Shown one piece after another: positions 41,974 through 46,489 of a DNA stretch of 64,000 nucleotides (positions within the stretch are counted from its first letter, which is position 1; the number at the start of each line of letters is the position of its first letter). A program made the position numbers and the translations under genes. Source of the DNA: Sphingobacteriales bacterium. GTDB taxonomy: Bacteria > Bacteroidota > Bacteroidia > Chitinophagales > Chitinophagaceae. The stretch is taken from NCBI GenBank assembly GCA_016185185.1, contig JACPOD010000073.1, forward strand, positions 1-64,000. Direction: 5' to 3'. The notes under the pieces were generated by a model. That model was not told where the DNA came from. It searched no databases and was given only the letters and a program-made list of their open reading frames with translations.

Positions 41974-42480
41974 CTACTTAAAAAACTTTACCAAAGCTCC
42001 CACAAACCAATTCTCATCAGCCTTTACCATTACCTGCAGCATCTTATCGGCCTGTTGTCCAAATTTTTTGATGCCACTCACCGTATCTACAAACTGTTTT
42101 ATGTTTTTATCTTTTTTATCGCCATCCACATCTTCCAGTTGGTCCAGCAATTTCAGCATTGGTTCCAGCTCACGTTTCTTTCTTTCCTTAATAATTTGCG
42201 TGGCTACTTTCCAGATATCTTTTTCTGCAGTAAAATATTCTTTTCGTTCGCCGGGGATAATTACACGGTCAACCAAACCCCAGTTAATCAAATCACGGAT
42301 ATTCATATTTACATTTCCGCGGCTGATGGAGAGCTGTTCCATCAAATCGTCCTGTGTCAATGGGTCAGGACTGATCATCAGCAGTGCATGTATTTGCGCC
42401 ATAGTCTTATTGATTCCCCAATGGGTACCAAAAGCTCCCCAGGAACTGATGAATTGTTTTTTTGCTTCGGAAAGTTTCAT
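41974..42480 (-). CDS. GbsR/MarR-family transcriptional regulator
   Basis: A 168-residue winged-helix regulator. The DNA-binding core is about residues 25-85 (MAQIHALLMISPDPLTQDDLMEQLSISRGNVNMNIRDLINWGLVDRV), and the wing has GERKEYFTAEKD. A long C-terminal helix probably forms the dimer. It could respond to a small ligand. It lies directly downstream of the type III PKS operon and upstream of the envelope-like series, so it may regulate either; the sequence does not decide. A TTTG-N19-TATTTTTA promoter candidate is just upstream. Confidence 0.88.
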   Translation of the reverse strand: MKLSEAKKQFISSWGAFGTHWGINKTMAQIHALLMISPDPLTQDDLMEQLSISRGNVNMNIRDLINWGLVDRVIIPGERKEYFTAEKDIWKVATQIIKERKKRELEPMLKLLDQLEDVDGDKKDKNIKQFVDTVSGIKKFGQQADKMLQVMVKADENWFVGALVKFFK

Positions 42481-42547: not shown

Positions 42548-43690
42548 TTAAAAGGGCTGCCCATGTGTTTGCCGGATGAGCCACTGACTGATACCCGGGA
42601 TGGGTTTTAGTAAAGCGATGAAAATATTCGTCACCCATGTTTTACCAAAGAAACGCTGGATGATGCGGCCCACTCTTAAACGGCTGCTGAATTGTTTTTT
42701 CCAACGTAATTGATATTGCTTTTCCATTTCTTCTCTTGTCAATTGGCCATTGAGTAAACTGTGGATACAATTAAAAGCAATTTTACTTCCATGCAGGGCC
42801 ATGCTCATGCCATTGCCACAAAGCGGGGTTATTACTCCGGCTGCATCGCCTATCAGCAGCACATGGTTTTCTATTTGTGTTTTGTGGTCAAAACTTATTT
42901 GTGAAATGGTGACCGGCGATTGGTACAGAACTTTTGCAGAAGAAAATATTTTTTGCAGATGGGTGTTTTGCGATAAGATGTTTTTTTCCATTAAAGCAAT
43001 ATTGTTTCCGCAACGGACAAGGTTAGCAGCCGTGGTTAAATAACATAAACAAAACCGATGTTCGTCCACTTGCGATATACCACAATAACCATCTTTAAAA
43101 TTATGAAGGGCAATGGTATCATTGGGCCAATTGGTTTGAATATGATATTTGATGCCGATGTAATTGTTCAGTTTATTGGGCTTGTTTTCTGCAAAACTTC
43201 TTTTCCATTTTATATCCAGGTTGCTGCGTTTGCCAAATGTGCCTGCAGCTACTTTAGAAAGAAAGCTGGCTTTATCCGTTTTAATATGAAAAGTTTCATT
43301 CTCAAAAACAATATCATTCACTTTTGTTTCTTCCATTACTACTACACCGGATGTTTTTGCTATTCGGGCTAAATAATTGTCCAGCATAAAACGACTGATA
43401 CCAAAGCCACCCAGCCCAAGAGTGGTTTGGATTGAATTTCCATTCGGGGCTGATACGATCAGCTTTTTAATTTCAGGTAAGTTCATTTCGCTCAGCGGTA
43501 CACCCAGTTCTTCCAAAAAGTTCCAGGATTCAAAACTGATGTACTCCCCGCACACTTTGTGAAAGGGATACTTTTCTTTTTCGAATAAAATGACCTGATA
43601 CCCCTGTCTGGCGCATTGTATACTTAAAGCAAGACCAGCAAGACCTCCCCCAACAATAGCTAAATCATATGTAGAATTTTCAATACTCAA
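42548..43690 (-). CDS. FAD-dependent oxidoreductase of the type III PKS operon
   Basis: A 380-residue flavoprotein of the geranylgeranyl-reductase / aromatic-hydroxylase group. It has a GxGxxG FAD motif (DLAIVGGGLAGLALSIQC, about residues 9-26), the group signature YPFHKVCGEYIS (about 41-52) and the second FAD motif LLIGDAAGVITPLCGNGMSMALHG (about 275-298). It would hydroxylate or reduce the polyketide or prenylated product. No ATG is available: the only frame start is TTG at 43690, which lies inside a word-like repeat that also ends the upstream methyltransferase gene. Translation is therefore probably weak or coupled. Confidence 0.85.
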   Translation of the reverse strand: MSIENSTYDLAIVGGGLAGLALSIQCARQGYQVILFEKEKYPFHKVCGEYISFESWNFLEELGVPLSEMNLPEIKKLIVSAPNGNSIQTTLGLGGFGISRFMLDNYLARIAKTSGVVVMEETKVNDIVFENETFHIKTDKASFLSKVAAGTFGKRSNLDIKWKRSFAENKPNKLNNYIGIKYHIQTNWPNDTIALHNFKDGYCGISQVDEHRFCLCYLTTAANLVRCGNNIALMEKNILSQNTHLQKIFSSAKVLYQSPVTISQISFDHKTQIENHVLLIGDAAGVITPLCGNGMSMALHGSKIAFNCIHSLLNGQLTREEMEKQYQLRWKKQFSSRLRVGRIIQRFFGKTWVTNIFIALLKPIPGISQWLIRQTHGQPF

Positions 43691-43722
43691 TGCTCAATTT
43701 TCAATGTTCAAAAATAACTAAC
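43672..43722. repeat. Word repeat at the methyltransferase / oxidoreductase junction
   Basis: On the minus strand the words are GAACATTGAAAATTGAGC and ATTGAGTATTGAAAATTC. The repeat contains the TGA stop of the methyltransferase (43703-43701) and the TTG start of the oxidoreductase (43690), and it also codes for the last residues of the former (VIFEH) and the first of the latter (SIENS). Confidence 0.7.
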
Positions 43723-44408
43723 CAGCGAAAAGCCCATTTCCATTTTATATTTACTTGTTTGCAGATTGATAAATTGACAAGGTTCGGTATTTCTTCTTTT
43801 TTAAACCCCCTCCTTACACTTAATGGTGCATCATTTTTAACCAGGTATGATTTTGAAAATAATTTTGTGAGCAGTTTAATGGAATAATAAGCCAACGGAT
43901 GCCGGTGTAAGTCATTTATAAAAAAACCGGTTGCTGAATTTTCTTTCATCCAGTTCAATTGTGTTATTAAATCTTCATCAGTAAAGTGATGACAGAAAAG
44001 GGAAGAAAAAATAATGTCCGGCTTTTGTTCAAACCTCACATTTTTATAATCAGATACAATAAAGTCAACAGTAAAATCCCTGCAATTTTCTTTGGCAAAC
44101 GAAATACAGTCTTTATTAGTATCTATACCAATAAACTTTACAGTTATATTTTTCTTTTTAAACCAATGATGAATAGCTTTCAGATTGTCTCCACCACCGC
44201 AGCCAATTTCACATATAAGTATGTTGACAGGTTGATCAGTTGACAAGTTATTTGTCAGCTCTTTTATTCCATCAATAGTTATTTTATGTCCGCCCAAATA
44301 TTTATTAATAAACTCAAGCTCCTGCATATTTCTTTTGATGTCGCCAAAAGAAATATCATCTCTGTCGAGTAATTCTTTTTGATAGGAACGATGAGAAAAA
44401 TCAGGCAT
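43701..44408 (-). CDS. Methyltransferase of the type III PKS operon
   Basis: A 235-residue class I SAM-dependent methyltransferase. Motif I is VNILICEIGCGGGDNLKAIH (about residues 60-79), followed by VKFIGIDTNKDCISFAKENC, the later FSSLFCHHFTDEDLITQLNWMKENS and GFFINDLHRHPLAYYS. It would methylate the polyketide. Residues TNNLSTDQPVN just before motif I are encoded by a TTGACAGGTTGATC-type word repeat (44222-44260). Its start overlaps the type III PKS stop by 8 bases, consistent with coupled translation. Confidence 0.85.
   Translation of the reverse strand: MPDFSHRSYQKELLDRDDISFGDIKRNMQELEFINKYLGGHKITIDGIKELTNNLSTDQPVNILICEIGCGGGDNLKAIHHWFKKKNITVKFIGIDTNKDCISFAKENCRDFTVDFIVSDYKNVRFEQKPDIIFSSLFCHHFTDEDLITQLNWMKENSATGFFINDLHRHPLAYYSIKLLTKLFSKSYLVKNDAPLSVRRGFKKEEIPNLVNLSICKQVNIKWKWAFRWLVIFEH
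44222..44260. repeat. TTGACAGGTTGATC-type word repeat in the methyltransferase gene
   Basis: Plus-strand words TGTTGACAGGTTGATCAGTTGAC then AAGTTATTTGTCAGCTC, related to the CTGTCATCTGTC family in reverse. In frame. Confidence 0.5.
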
Positions 44409-45513
44409 ATACCGAAGCTACAAAAGTTTCCATTGTAAGACCGGGACCAAAAGCGGCACCAAATACGGCCCCCTCCCGGCCTCCCCCGGGGGGGGAGAAG
44501 TTTGAAAACTCAGACATGATTTCTTTTAATACAAACAAGATAGTAGGTGATGACATATTACCATATTTATTCAGCACTTCATAACTTTCTTTTAATTGCC
44601 CGTTGGAAAAATGAAGCGATTTGTGAATGGCTTCTAATATTCTTTTACCACCGGGATGGATGCACCAGTTGGAAATATCTTTTTGTTGTACACCTGCCTT
44701 TTGTAAAGATTTTTCAACCAGCAATTGAAAATCTTCTTCTATCAACTCCGGTATATAACCACTCAACGTCATCAAAAAGCCGGACGAGGATAATTCCCAT
44801 GCCATATCTTTTTTTCCACGACTGATAATCTCGCTGTAAAAATCTTTTATCACTAAACCCTTTTGCTCAAAATCATCATTGGTAATCAATGCAGCGGCCG
44901 CCCCATCCCCAAACAACATACTGGAAGTAATATTATCCATAGTACCTTCTCTCTGGAAATGGAGGGTGCATAATTCGGTGCACACTATAAGCACCTTCGA
45001 ATTTTTCTCGCTGTTACAAATACTACCGGCCATTTTCATAGCATGAATTGCTGCATAGCAACCCATAAAATTTACAGAAGTGCGGTAAATATTTTTAGGA
45101 AGGTCCATTAAATCCATCACCTGCAGATCCAAACCCGGTGCACTCATACCGGTACAGCTTACAGTGATCAGGTGTGTTATTTCCTGGGGATGGATTTTAT
45201 GCTCAATACAAGAACGTATGGCATCTACACTTAACGGGGCGGCATATTTATTAAACCAAATCATCCGCTTTTCCAATGAAGGGAATGGCTCTAAGTTTTC
45301 ACTTTGCGGATAAAATTTCCAGTCATTCAGGCAACGGCTGTAATCAGGCACTACAGAATACCTGTTGTCAATTCCACTTTGATGATATAAAAATTTCAAC
45401 TTTCTTTTTCCCACATCATCCATGGCATACACCTGCTGCATGAAGTGTAAAATATCTTCCTGCCGGTGTTTGTATTTTGGGACAGCTGTACCAATTGAAA
45501 TTATTTTAGCCAT
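44401..45513 (-). CDS. Type III polyketide synthase (chalcone-synthase-like)
   Basis: A 370-residue homodimeric ketosynthase. The catalytic triad is complete: Cys152 in SVNFMGCYAAIHAMKMA, His286 in CIHPGGKR and Asn319 in KYGNMSSPT. The GFGPG-like loop is AAFGPGLTMET (about 353-363). It would extend an acyl-CoA starter with malonyl-CoA and cyclise to a pyrone, resorcinol or similar ring. A word repeat of the CCCC/GGGG kind encodes an unusual stretch, NFSPPGGGREGAV (about 338-350), just before the GPG loop. It overlaps UbiA by 8 bases and the methyltransferase by 8 bases, which makes a compact operon. Confidence 0.92.
   Translation of the reverse strand: MAKIISIGTAVPKYKHRQEDILHFMQQVYAMDDVGKRKLKFLYHQSGIDNRYSVVPDYSRCLNDWKFYPQSENLEPFPSLEKRMIWFNKYAAPLSVDAIRSCIEHKIHPQEITHLITVSCTGMSAPGLDLQVMDLMDLPKNIYRTSVNFMGCYAAIHAMKMAGSICNSEKNSKVLIVCTELCTLHFQREGTMDNITSSMLFGDGAAAALITNDDFEQKGLVIKDFYSEIISRGKKDMAWELSSSGFLMTLSGYIPELIEEDFQLLVEKSLQKAGVQQKDISNWCIHPGGKRILEAIHKSLHFSNGQLKESYEVLNKYGNMSSPTILFVLKEIMSEFSNFSPPGGGREGAVFGAAFGPGLTMETFVASVYA
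44464..44506. repeat. C/G-run word repeat in the type III PKS gene
   Basis: Plus-strand tract of C runs and G runs (GGCCCCCTCCCGGCCTCCCC followed by a G run, then AGAAGTTTG). It is a relative of the CCCCAACCCCTAAAGGGG repeat at 53374. It stays in frame and codes for a Gly/Pro-rich loop. Confidence 0.6.
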
Positions 45514-46381
45514 GATGATTTAAAATTAATATGGTGATAAATCCCAGGTTAGTACAAACAGAAGCAAGCAAATTCATACGCATGGTGTTTTTGAAATTGG
45601 CTTCCCCTGTGTTTTTCCAAACTTTACCTGCCCAAATAAAGAAATATACGAGAATCGGTAAAAGAAAGATTTGCAGAACCAGGAATTGCGTTGTTTGAAA
45701 GGAAGTAAAGAACAGGTAAGCCAGCATAGCTACTGCCAATGTATATATAAAAGCAGTAAAAATAAAAGTGCCCCGGTAACCGAGTATGGAACTGATTGTT
45801 TTTACACCATCTTTCTTGTCTGCTTCATGCTGGTAAATTTGAGTAAGAGGGTAGAACCCACCGATTAACAAACTGGCAGCAATCATGGCTTCCAAACTTG
45901 TATCAACTGATTTATCGGGATAACTGCTTCCGTAATGAACCATAAAGTAAGTTACACCACCCTGGAAGATCACCACCGTCAAGTAGCCGACAACAGGATA
46001 TTTTTTTAAACGAATGCCGCGGTAACTATAAGCCCTGGAGGCAAGAATATATAATATGATGCAGATGAAAAACCAGCCATTAATGAAGTAACTCAGCACA
46101 ACAGCCATTATATCCATTACAACAGTTGTAATGAATAATTGTTTGGTGGGCTGCATTGGATTTGCCAAACCGCCTATGGGTGTTTCATCCCTGTCCATGT
46201 AAGAATTATAACCATTGCTTGCAGGATAGACTAATAAATGAAGTATAAAAAAAATCAGGATGGCTTTTAACCAGTTAATATCAGGCACCTGGCTTAATGC
46301 AAACCAATAAACAGGCATTAAGAAAACAGAAAAATGAAAACGTAATAATTGAAACGTTGATCTTTGAAGCACCCGGCACAT
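45506..46381 (-). CDS. UbiA-family prenyltransferase of the type III PKS operon
   Basis: A 291-residue integral membrane prenyltransferase with eight or nine helices. The two Asp-rich prenyl-diphosphate motifs are NGYNSYMDRDE (about residues 58-68) and HEADKKDG (about 191-198). It would attach a prenyl chain to the aromatic ring, which could be the type III PKS product. It is the first gene of the operon (ATG 46381). No convincing promoter consensus is seen upstream; a TACCTTAG-like element on the minus strand near 46410 is only a weak hint. Confidence 0.88.
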   Translation of the reverse strand: MCRVLQRSTFQLLRFHFSVFLMPVYWFALSQVPDINWLKAILIFFILHLLVYPASNGYNSYMDRDETPIGGLANPMQPTKQLFITTVVMDIMAVVLSYFINGWFFICIILYILASRAYSYRGIRLKKYPVVGYLTVVIFQGGVTYFMVHYGSSYPDKSVDTSLEAMIAASLLIGGFYPLTQIYQHEADKKDGVKTISSILGYRGTFIFTAFIYTLAVAMLAYLFFTSFQTTQFLVLQIFLLPILVYFFIWAGKVWKNTGEANFKNTMRMNLLASVCTNLGFITILILNHHG

Positions 46382-46445
46382 TTTGATTTGTGAAATTTAA
46401 AACTAAGGTATTATCTGTTATTCATGTGTTATTTATAAAACAGAA

Positions 46446-46466
46446 AGTCCCGCCAAAAGCGGGACT
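46446..46466 (-). terminator. Terminator-type hairpin after the DUF4382 gene
   Basis: Arms AGTCCCGC (46446-46453) and GCGGGACT (46459-46466), 5-base loop, with a moderately T-rich minus-strand exit (TTCTGTTTTAT). Same stem as at 10795 and 33881. Confidence 0.75.
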
Positions 46467-46489
46467 CACACATCTGTACAGGTGCTAAA

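Follow-up and report, generated by a model that had tools for sequence, protein, structure and literature searches.

We analysed a stretch of 64,000 nucleotides from a Sphingobacteriales bacterium of the family Chitinophagaceae (assembly GCA_016185185.1, contig JACPOD010000073.1, positions 1 to 64,000; hereafter, the window) and found that four genes at 42548-46381, all on the minus strand, form a compact operon that probably encodes a pathway for a phenolic lipid. In order of transcription, the genes encode a UbiA-superfamily integral membrane protein, proposed to be a prenyltransferase (45506-46381, 291 aa; Pfam PF01040); a type III polyketide synthase (T3PKS) with Pfam chalcone/stilbene synthase domains, proposed to make long-chain alkylresorcinols (44401-45513, 370 aa); a class I S-adenosylmethionine (SAM)-dependent methyltransferase (MT), whose nearest NCBIfam model is PRK06202 (43701-44408, 235 aa); and a flavin adenine dinucleotide (FAD) enzyme with the fold of p-hydroxybenzoate hydroxylase (PHBH), flavin halogenases and geranylgeranyl reductase, proposed to hydroxylate or oxidise the ring (42548-43690, 380 aa, TTG start). 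The stop of UbiA and the start of T3PKS overlap by 8 nt at 45506-45513 (ATGGCTAA), as do the stop of T3PKS and the start of MT at 44401-44408 (ATGCCTGA), and 10 nt separate MT from FAD. The initial annotation had described four co-directional genes with 8-base overlaps at the first two junctions, and the coordinates of the open reading frames (ORFs) confirm both points. All four enzyme types are supported by Pfam scores above the cut-offs; the best NCBIfam models are of the right kind, and all four score below theirs. The window has a GC content of 38.1%; the genome it comes from measures 2.84 Mb, is split into 122 contigs and is 81% complete.

Conservation of the operon in close relatives

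The same four genes, in the same order and on the same strand, are present in 77 of 80 loci (the named loci) taken from the best 80 of 551 relatives in the GTDB contig collection, and the figure is therefore valid for close relatives. Because order and strand recur in this way, the grouping is more than chance. In two of the three exceptions (L072 and L117) the contig ends within the locus; the third, L064, has only UbiA and T3PKS. According to the record titles, the named loci come from Chitinophagaceae or its genera, Sphingobacteriales, Chitinophagales and other Bacteroidetes/Bacteroidota, with one uncultured bacterium among them. The four genes are found in named cultured strains of Niastella, Flavihumibacter, Flavisolibacter, Terrimonas and others. 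Median gaps between the best BLAST segments of consecutive genes are 10, 28 and 35 nt. In the first search for relatives, 30 of 59 genomes gave a T3PKS match with an E value of at most 0.001. The initial annotation had proposed looking for the four-gene order elsewhere in Bacteroidota. The order holds within the family, whereas outside it the order changes (see below). Separate, non-conserved neighbourhoods for the individual genes, which would have spoken against a common pathway, were also considered within the family, and the conservation described here does not support them.

Features of the four proteins

The T3PKS belongs to its family by Pfam, with 97.1 and 86.8 bits for Chal_sti_synt_N and Chal_sti_synt_C (cut-offs 27 and 27). 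Its catalytic triad, Cys152-His286-Asn319, is intact in all 133 aligned sequences, the T3PKS, UbiA and FAD sequence sets each including some genomes twice. A small residue, Cys182, is kept in 132 of the 133; it aligns with the position that is Cys in the PKS18 structure 1ted and Phe in 1tee, which we take to be the C205F mutant of PKS18 with a narrowed acyl tunnel. Identification of the enzyme as DpgA (3,5-dihydroxyphenylacetyl-CoA synthase) was rejected, as model NF042429 gave 152.5 bits against a cut-off of 425. The MT scores 43.8 and 43.5 bits with Methyltransf_31 and Methyltransf_25 (cut-offs 27 and 27) and 123.5 bits with PRK06202 (cut-off 243).

The UbiA protein scores 71.2 bits with PF01040 (cut-off 34.2). 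Its AlphaFold model (pLDDT 92.5) has AfUbiA (4tq4) and DGGGP synthase (7bpu) as top Foldseek matches, and the TMq values of 0.60-0.70 with 4tq4, 7bpu, 4od4 and UBIAD1 (8djk) place the predicted structure in the superfamily. Motif 1 reads N59-S-Y-M-D63-R-D65 (NxxxDxD) and motif 2 reads Q184-H-E-A-D188 (QxxxD). The protein is therefore best described as a UbiA-superfamily variant that may carry out prenyl transfer, and two polyprenyl synthases in the source genome are a possible donor supply. A search of 72,556 plasmid records with this protein gave no match at E 0.01.

The FAD enzyme scores 36.3 bits with FAD_binding_3 (cut-off 22) and contains the motifs KVCGEY and GYCG. Its predicted structure (pLDDT 87.2) is PHBH-like, with VIA-align Z scores of 37.5 (8zop), 36.8 (PltA), 33.4 (3oz2) and 33.3 (PHBH, 1ykj). 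The GxGxxG motif (G14, G16 and G19 in 115 of 116 sequences) and the GD motif (G281/D282 in 116 of 116) are both present. A shared fold does not show function, and since flavin halogenases, PHBH and a geranylgeranyl-reductase-like protein all align at similar Z (37.5-33.0), the fold leaves the chemistry undecided.

Co-occurrence across Bacteroidota

We profiled 395 Bacteroidota genomes by whole-genome search, and this profile is our strongest line of evidence. Absences in this profile are soft because only about 4-7 candidates were scored per genome, and the counts and hypergeometric tests ignore shared descent. The UbiA subfamily is present at 226-497 bits in 26 of the 395 genomes, spread over seven families, and all 26 fall within the 27 genomes with the best T3PKS scores; a strong UbiA of this subfamily without a T3PKS was found in 0 of the 26. 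The remaining T3PKS carrier among the best 27 is G571, a member of the family f44. Weaker UbiA matches (107.6-126 bits) occur in 14 genomes, all of them f44 and none with the match near a T3PKS, and these were left out of the strong set. The other two enzymes also go with a T3PKS: the FAD enzyme (E 1e-40) is found in 82 genomes, all 82 with a T3PKS match, and such a match is likewise present in 97 of the 98 genomes with the MT (E 1e-30), while T3PKS matches overall amount to 179 of 395.

If linkage is defined as the same contig and a distance below 10 kb, 6 of the 26 genomes have a UbiA that is not linked to T3PKS (three at 335-720 kb, three on other contigs); the same applies to FAD in 5 of 26 and to MT in 1 of 24. 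As UbiA lies far from T3PKS in six genomes, their pairing is not mere neighbourhood, and such co-retention despite lost linkage is hard to get by hitch-hiking. The proposal of the initial annotation that the four genes serve one pathway thus gains support from co-occurrence even where the genes are apart. Other families (80 loci) show rearranged versions: UbiA divergent from T3PKS; FAD, divergent UbiA, T3PKS and MT; or T3PKS-MT-FAD with no nearby UbiA. In five of these 80 loci (L210, L232, L237, L238 and L240) no T3PKS ORF was called, which we attribute to the simple ORF caller.

Directly before UbiA, L187 (4769-6889) and L275 (5590-7716) each encode a protein (706 and 708 aa) that bears a CHU_C type IX secretion signal. 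These loci come from two genomes of one genus (G065 and G077), and UbiA adjoins T3PKS only in the first.

A second T3PKS class and clusters outside the phylum

Two T3PKS PARTNERSHIPS can be told apart: besides the UbiA-paired one, there is a second class that matches the window T3PKS model at E about 1e-54 to 1e-64. In 32 further same-class genomes, the FAD enzyme occurs together with a second-class T3PKS and without a strong match to the window UbiA subfamily. Because both FAD and MT accompany the second-class T3PKS in these genomes, the polyketide is a likelier substrate for them than a prenyl chain. The window-type UbiA belongs with one T3PKS lineage, and MT and FAD go with the polyketide. 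Among the second-class loci examined (L258-L262 and L264), FAD, MT and T3PKS are in line in five; in L262, the MT was missed by the ORF caller and was placed between FAD and T3PKS by profile-match positions. Fatty-acid-synthase-like genes follow the second-class T3PKS, and Pfam (L258 and L054) assigns them to a short-chain dehydrogenase/reductase (SDR), a FabA-like protein, a ketosynthase and a phosphopantetheinyl transferase, which suggests a dedicated acyl starter supply. By the ORF caller, this cluster (about 5500-11900 in L258) includes the SDR in three of six loci and the FabA-like dehydratase in five of six; alongside the ketosynthase and the phosphopantetheinyl transferase, it has a protein of ~100 aa with no Pfam match in L258.

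A single f44 locus, L224, was scanned. There, a different flavoprotein occupies the slot behind T3PKS and MT; its closest models are aromatic hydroxylases, with 174.7 bits for PRK08244 (cut-off 644) and 133.4 bits for the UbiH-type Ubi-OHases (cut-off 224.65). The MT of this locus scores 259.6 bits with PRK06202, above the cut-off of 243. By these model scores from a single locus, L224 supports ring hydroxylation as the probable role of the slot. The f44 T3PKS locus often lies ~10-14 kb from a contig start (for example in G457, G368, G534, G519 and G548), which might mean that it adjoins a repetitive element, for instance an rRNA operon.

Related proteobacterial clusters came up in a plasmid search with the FAD and T3PKS queries. 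In Roseomonas, T3PKS, MT and FAD are in line, and in a Psychrobacter cluster FAD and MT are encoded on the strand opposite to T3PKS. The proteins of both are homologous by HMM score, the weakest being the Psychrobacter FAD enzyme (60.4 bits). A Paenibacillus region found in the same search is without annotation. Plasmids also carry FAD homologues in Hymenobacter sp. DG01 (43% identity) and Bernardetia (42%). In the former (L268, 3119-8128), the homologue stands with an isonitrile synthase gene and a TauD/TfdA dioxygenase and with no annotated T3PKS, perhaps a different use of the flavoprotein.

Comparison with known systems

The comparisons below follow published descriptions, in the portions of the papers that were covered. 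In Actinoplanes missouriensis, the T3PKS AgqA and the products of agqB-D produce alkyl-O-dihydrogeranyl-methoxyhydroquinones, an alkylresorcinol being prenylated and hydroxylated (PMC10896814, PMC7692728, PMC3569393); the prenyltransferase of this system is described as a membrane enzyme that acts on oxygen. By enzyme type, agq resembles the window operon in bringing together a T3PKS, a UbiA-type prenyltransferase, a methyltransferase and an oxygenase, although the window UbiA is a motif variant and Actinoplanes belongs to another phylum. In the actinobacterium Gephyromycinifex, UbiA, a stilbene-synthase-type T3PKS, an isoprenylcysteine carboxyl methyltransferase (ICMT) and an FAD-dependent oxygenase are encoded side by side (PMC8779670). 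The methyltransferase there is of the isoprenylcysteine carboxyl type, whereas that of the window matches soluble class I models, and the text covered proposes no prenylated product (PMC8779670). The prenyltransferase had been thought to set the operon apart from actinomycete pathways, a view that agq and the Gephyromycinifex neighbourhood do not support. The losA locus of Micromonospora endolithica, responsible for loseolamycins, likewise has UbiA-family and methyltransferase genes near an alkylresorcinol-making T3PKS; it differs in having an acyl-CoA dehydrogenase in between and no FAD oxygenase in the gene-table rows covered, and the products described, from T3PKS expression, are unprenylated alkylresorcinols (PMC7587189).

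Adjacent MT, oxidoreductase and T3PKS genes are also shared with hidABC of picocyanobacteria, which makes hierridin B, and with the operon of Planctomycetota. In both systems, as described, the T3PKS makes a long-chain alkylresorcinol and the ring is methylated (PMC8086630, PMC10896814). The order there is MT-oxidoreductase-T3PKS, unlike the UbiA-T3PKS-MT-FAD of the window, and a prenyltransferase is described in just one of 47 hierridin-like cyanobacterial clusters, that of Raphidiopsis (PMC8086630), and in none of the planctomycete operons. In planctomycetes, 58 of 96 T3PKS genes share an operon with MT and oxidoreductase genes; the T3PKSs tested from such operons, with Corynebacterium glutamicum as host, make pentadecyl- and heptadecylresorcinols (PMC10896814); the planctomycete proteins are reported to be 48-55% identical to HidA-C. 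The flexirubins (darA/darB) are also resorcinol lipids of Bacteroidota (PMC9606717), but these dialkylresorcinols are described as products of DarA and of DarB, which resembles ketoacyl-ACP synthase III, and not of a T3PKS with UbiA. Given the agq, hierridin, planctomycete and Gephyromycinifex precedents, a pathway to a prenylated, methylated and oxidised alkylresorcinol is not new as an idea. No description of the window operon in Bacteroidota was found in the titles and abstract openings covered, which support its absence from the literature weakly; what may be new is the Bacteroidota form, its breadth in that phylum and the altered UbiA motif.

Proposed pathway and alternatives

Taken together, these results make it fairly likely that the operon encodes an endogenous phenolic-lipid pathway, with a membrane-embedded prenylated alkyl-hydroquinone or quinone as its product. 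This upholds the prenylated, methylated and oxidised phenolic or quinone-like lipid of the initial annotation as the most likely product type. In the most economical scheme, which we infer throughout, from the starter unit, ring type and order of steps to the methylation site, prenyl donor and acceptor atom, final redox state and biological role, the T3PKS would be loaded with a long-chain acyl thioester, add malonyl units and cyclise the chain to an alkylresorcinol. The MT would transfer a methyl group (to O or C) onto the ring, the FAD enzyme would hydroxylate or oxidise the ring to give a hydroquinone or quinone, and the UbiA-family membrane protein would attach an isoprenyl chain.

A number of observations weigh against this scheme, among them the UbiA motifs and a PKS18 match, which are given below with the alternatives that they favour. 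L064 has neither MT nor FAD within its 17 kb, and at E 1e-30 no MT was matched in two genomes with T3PKS, UbiA and FAD (G444 and G621). The best curated models for the FAD enzyme lie below cut-off. The DG motif, usual in PHBH-fold group A FAD monooxygenases, is missing from it (the sequence is GTFGKRS), the Asp position being F, Y or W in 112 of 116 sequences. No annotated T3PKS lies within 6-7 kb of the plasmid FAD homologues of Hymenobacter sp. DG01 and Bernardetia, the PLSDB gene tables being incomplete, and the FAD enzyme alone therefore does not imply the pathway. When the MT and FAD enzyme of Gimesia were co-expressed, a single methylation resulted, which was probably on carbon; the account as covered assigns no role to the FAD enzyme (PMC10896814). 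The literature covered yielded no product or enzyme measurement for the window operon.

The UbiA-like protein might not be a prenyltransferase acting on the polyketide at all; its altered acidic motifs would then reflect a changed activity, such as use of another donor, lipid headgroup exchange or a scaffold/transport function. We regard this as unlikely, although the motifs do depart from the canon. In motif 2, all 118 readable sequences have Gln where DxxxD has its first Asp (Q184xxxD188), and in motif 1 only 4 of 119 retain the final Asp of NxxxDxxxD, whereas a UbiA paralogue of the same genome (L003) has the canonical motifs NDYFDINID and DIEDIEGD. Moreover, N56, N59, D63, D65, Y118, R124 and K126 do not vary among the 119 sequences, which argues that the protein does something specific. 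On the other hand, N59, D63, D65 and D188 remain, the fold and the Pfam match are those of prenyltransferases, and O-prenylation of a small polyketide by a membrane enzyme has a described precedent (PMC4044012).

Alternative roles for the FAD enzyme and the T3PKS appear less plausible still. The FAD enzyme could be a prenyl reductase of the geranylgeranyl-reductase type that saturates the prenyl chain, as its best NCBIfam model (the geranylgeranyl reductase family TIGR02032, 101.6 bits) and the Z of 33.4 with the Thermoplasma geranylgeranyl-reductase-like protein 3oz2 would have it; the dihydrogeranyl group of the agq product might suggest the same. However, the TIGR02032 score is below the curated cut-off of 158.8 and does not establish membership of that family, and halogenases and hydroxylases fit the predicted structure at least as well. 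Prenyl reduction is ranked second as the role of the FAD enzyme because a close FAD homologue also goes with a T3PKS in the 32 genomes without a strong UbiA match, although another UbiA paralogue could prenylate there. It is also quite improbable that the T3PKS makes an alkyl-alpha-pyrone that MT, FAD and UbiA then decorate into a pyrone meroterpenoid. The second-best profile match among solved structures is indeed pks18 (1ted, 225.1 bits), which we take to be an alkylpyrone synthase, but an FAD ring hydroxylase would be expected to act on an aromatic ring. In addition, planctomycete and cyanobacterial T3PKSs accompanied by MT and oxidoreductase are described as making alkylresorcinols (PMC10896814).

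Finally, unrelated genes may have come together by chance or have kept an inherited order only. The distances of the four proteins correlate (r 0.53-0.70 over 63 of the 80 loci, 17 having been dropped for missing or short ORFs), and shared descent of the hosts would give the same. Co-occurrence outlives linkage for UbiA, FAD and MT, however, so that this explanation is largely contradicted and has hardly any probability left.

Borders of the operon and neighbouring genes

A hairpin of 10 pairs resembling an intrinsic terminator (46445-46467, minus strand; a consensus match only) lies between UbiA and the upstream DUF4382 gene and is likely the upstream border of the transcription unit, parting the operon from that gene. 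Taken alone, it is weak evidence, since the window has 10 such sites against 4.3 expected. Downstream, a MarR/GbsR-like regulator is encoded on the same strand at 41974-42480, 67 nt after FAD (MarR_2, 36.2 bits, cut-off 27). Its best NCBIfam model, CudC, gives 51.7 bits, far below the cut-off of 218, so that the GbsR label is loose. The gene adjoins FAD in both same-genus genomes too (L036 and L037) and is possibly a fifth operon gene in the genus of the window. The suggestion that the operon is always beside a GbsR-type regulator was not borne out: of the 63 loci that extend 3 kb or more beyond FAD, 20 have such a gene, and in 12 of the 80 named loci it lies within 1.5 kb of FAD, which rules it out as a constant part of the operon.

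Other candidates for a constant operon gene were rejected as well. A conserved ORF of ~490 aa directly follows FAD in four loci (L041, L043, L045 and L049; no Pfam match in L041 and L045), in some of which a TonB_C-type protein sits behind it, and a cluster of ~250-aa proteins is found in three (L039, L041 and L049), the scanned L041 copy having TonB_C. In the loci inspected for neighbouring genes, which are only partly annotated, no further gene was seen constantly beside the four. Since no dedicated exporter or acyl-activating gene stands out, the product may be a lipid that stays in the membrane and not an antibiotic that is secreted.

Implications

As the UbiA-T3PKS pair extends over seven families (26 genomes of the sample), prenylated phenolic lipids of an uncharacterised class may be widespread among Bacteroidota. 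Strains with all four genes are named and in culture, so that the product can be tested for directly. More speculatively, and with a rather low likelihood, the operon could be a polyketide counterpart of the ubiquinone pathway, in which a T3PKS replaces chorismate as the source of the ring and UbiA-, UbiG- and UbiH-like steps follow. The product would then be a second, non-menaquinone lipoquinone of several Bacteroidota families, made by a UbiA with a new QxxxD site and serving as a membrane redox carrier or antioxidant. Polyketide quinones are described as electron carriers of Mycobacterium tuberculosis in oxygen-poor niches (PMC10896814). If the product is a quinone, these bacteria would have a polyketide-derived carrier beside menaquinone. 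The QxxxD UbiA subfamily would in itself be a good system for probing the function of the acidic motifs, and the operon would gain in significance if its product turned out to be a lipoquinone or if the chemistry of the QxxxD UbiA were new.

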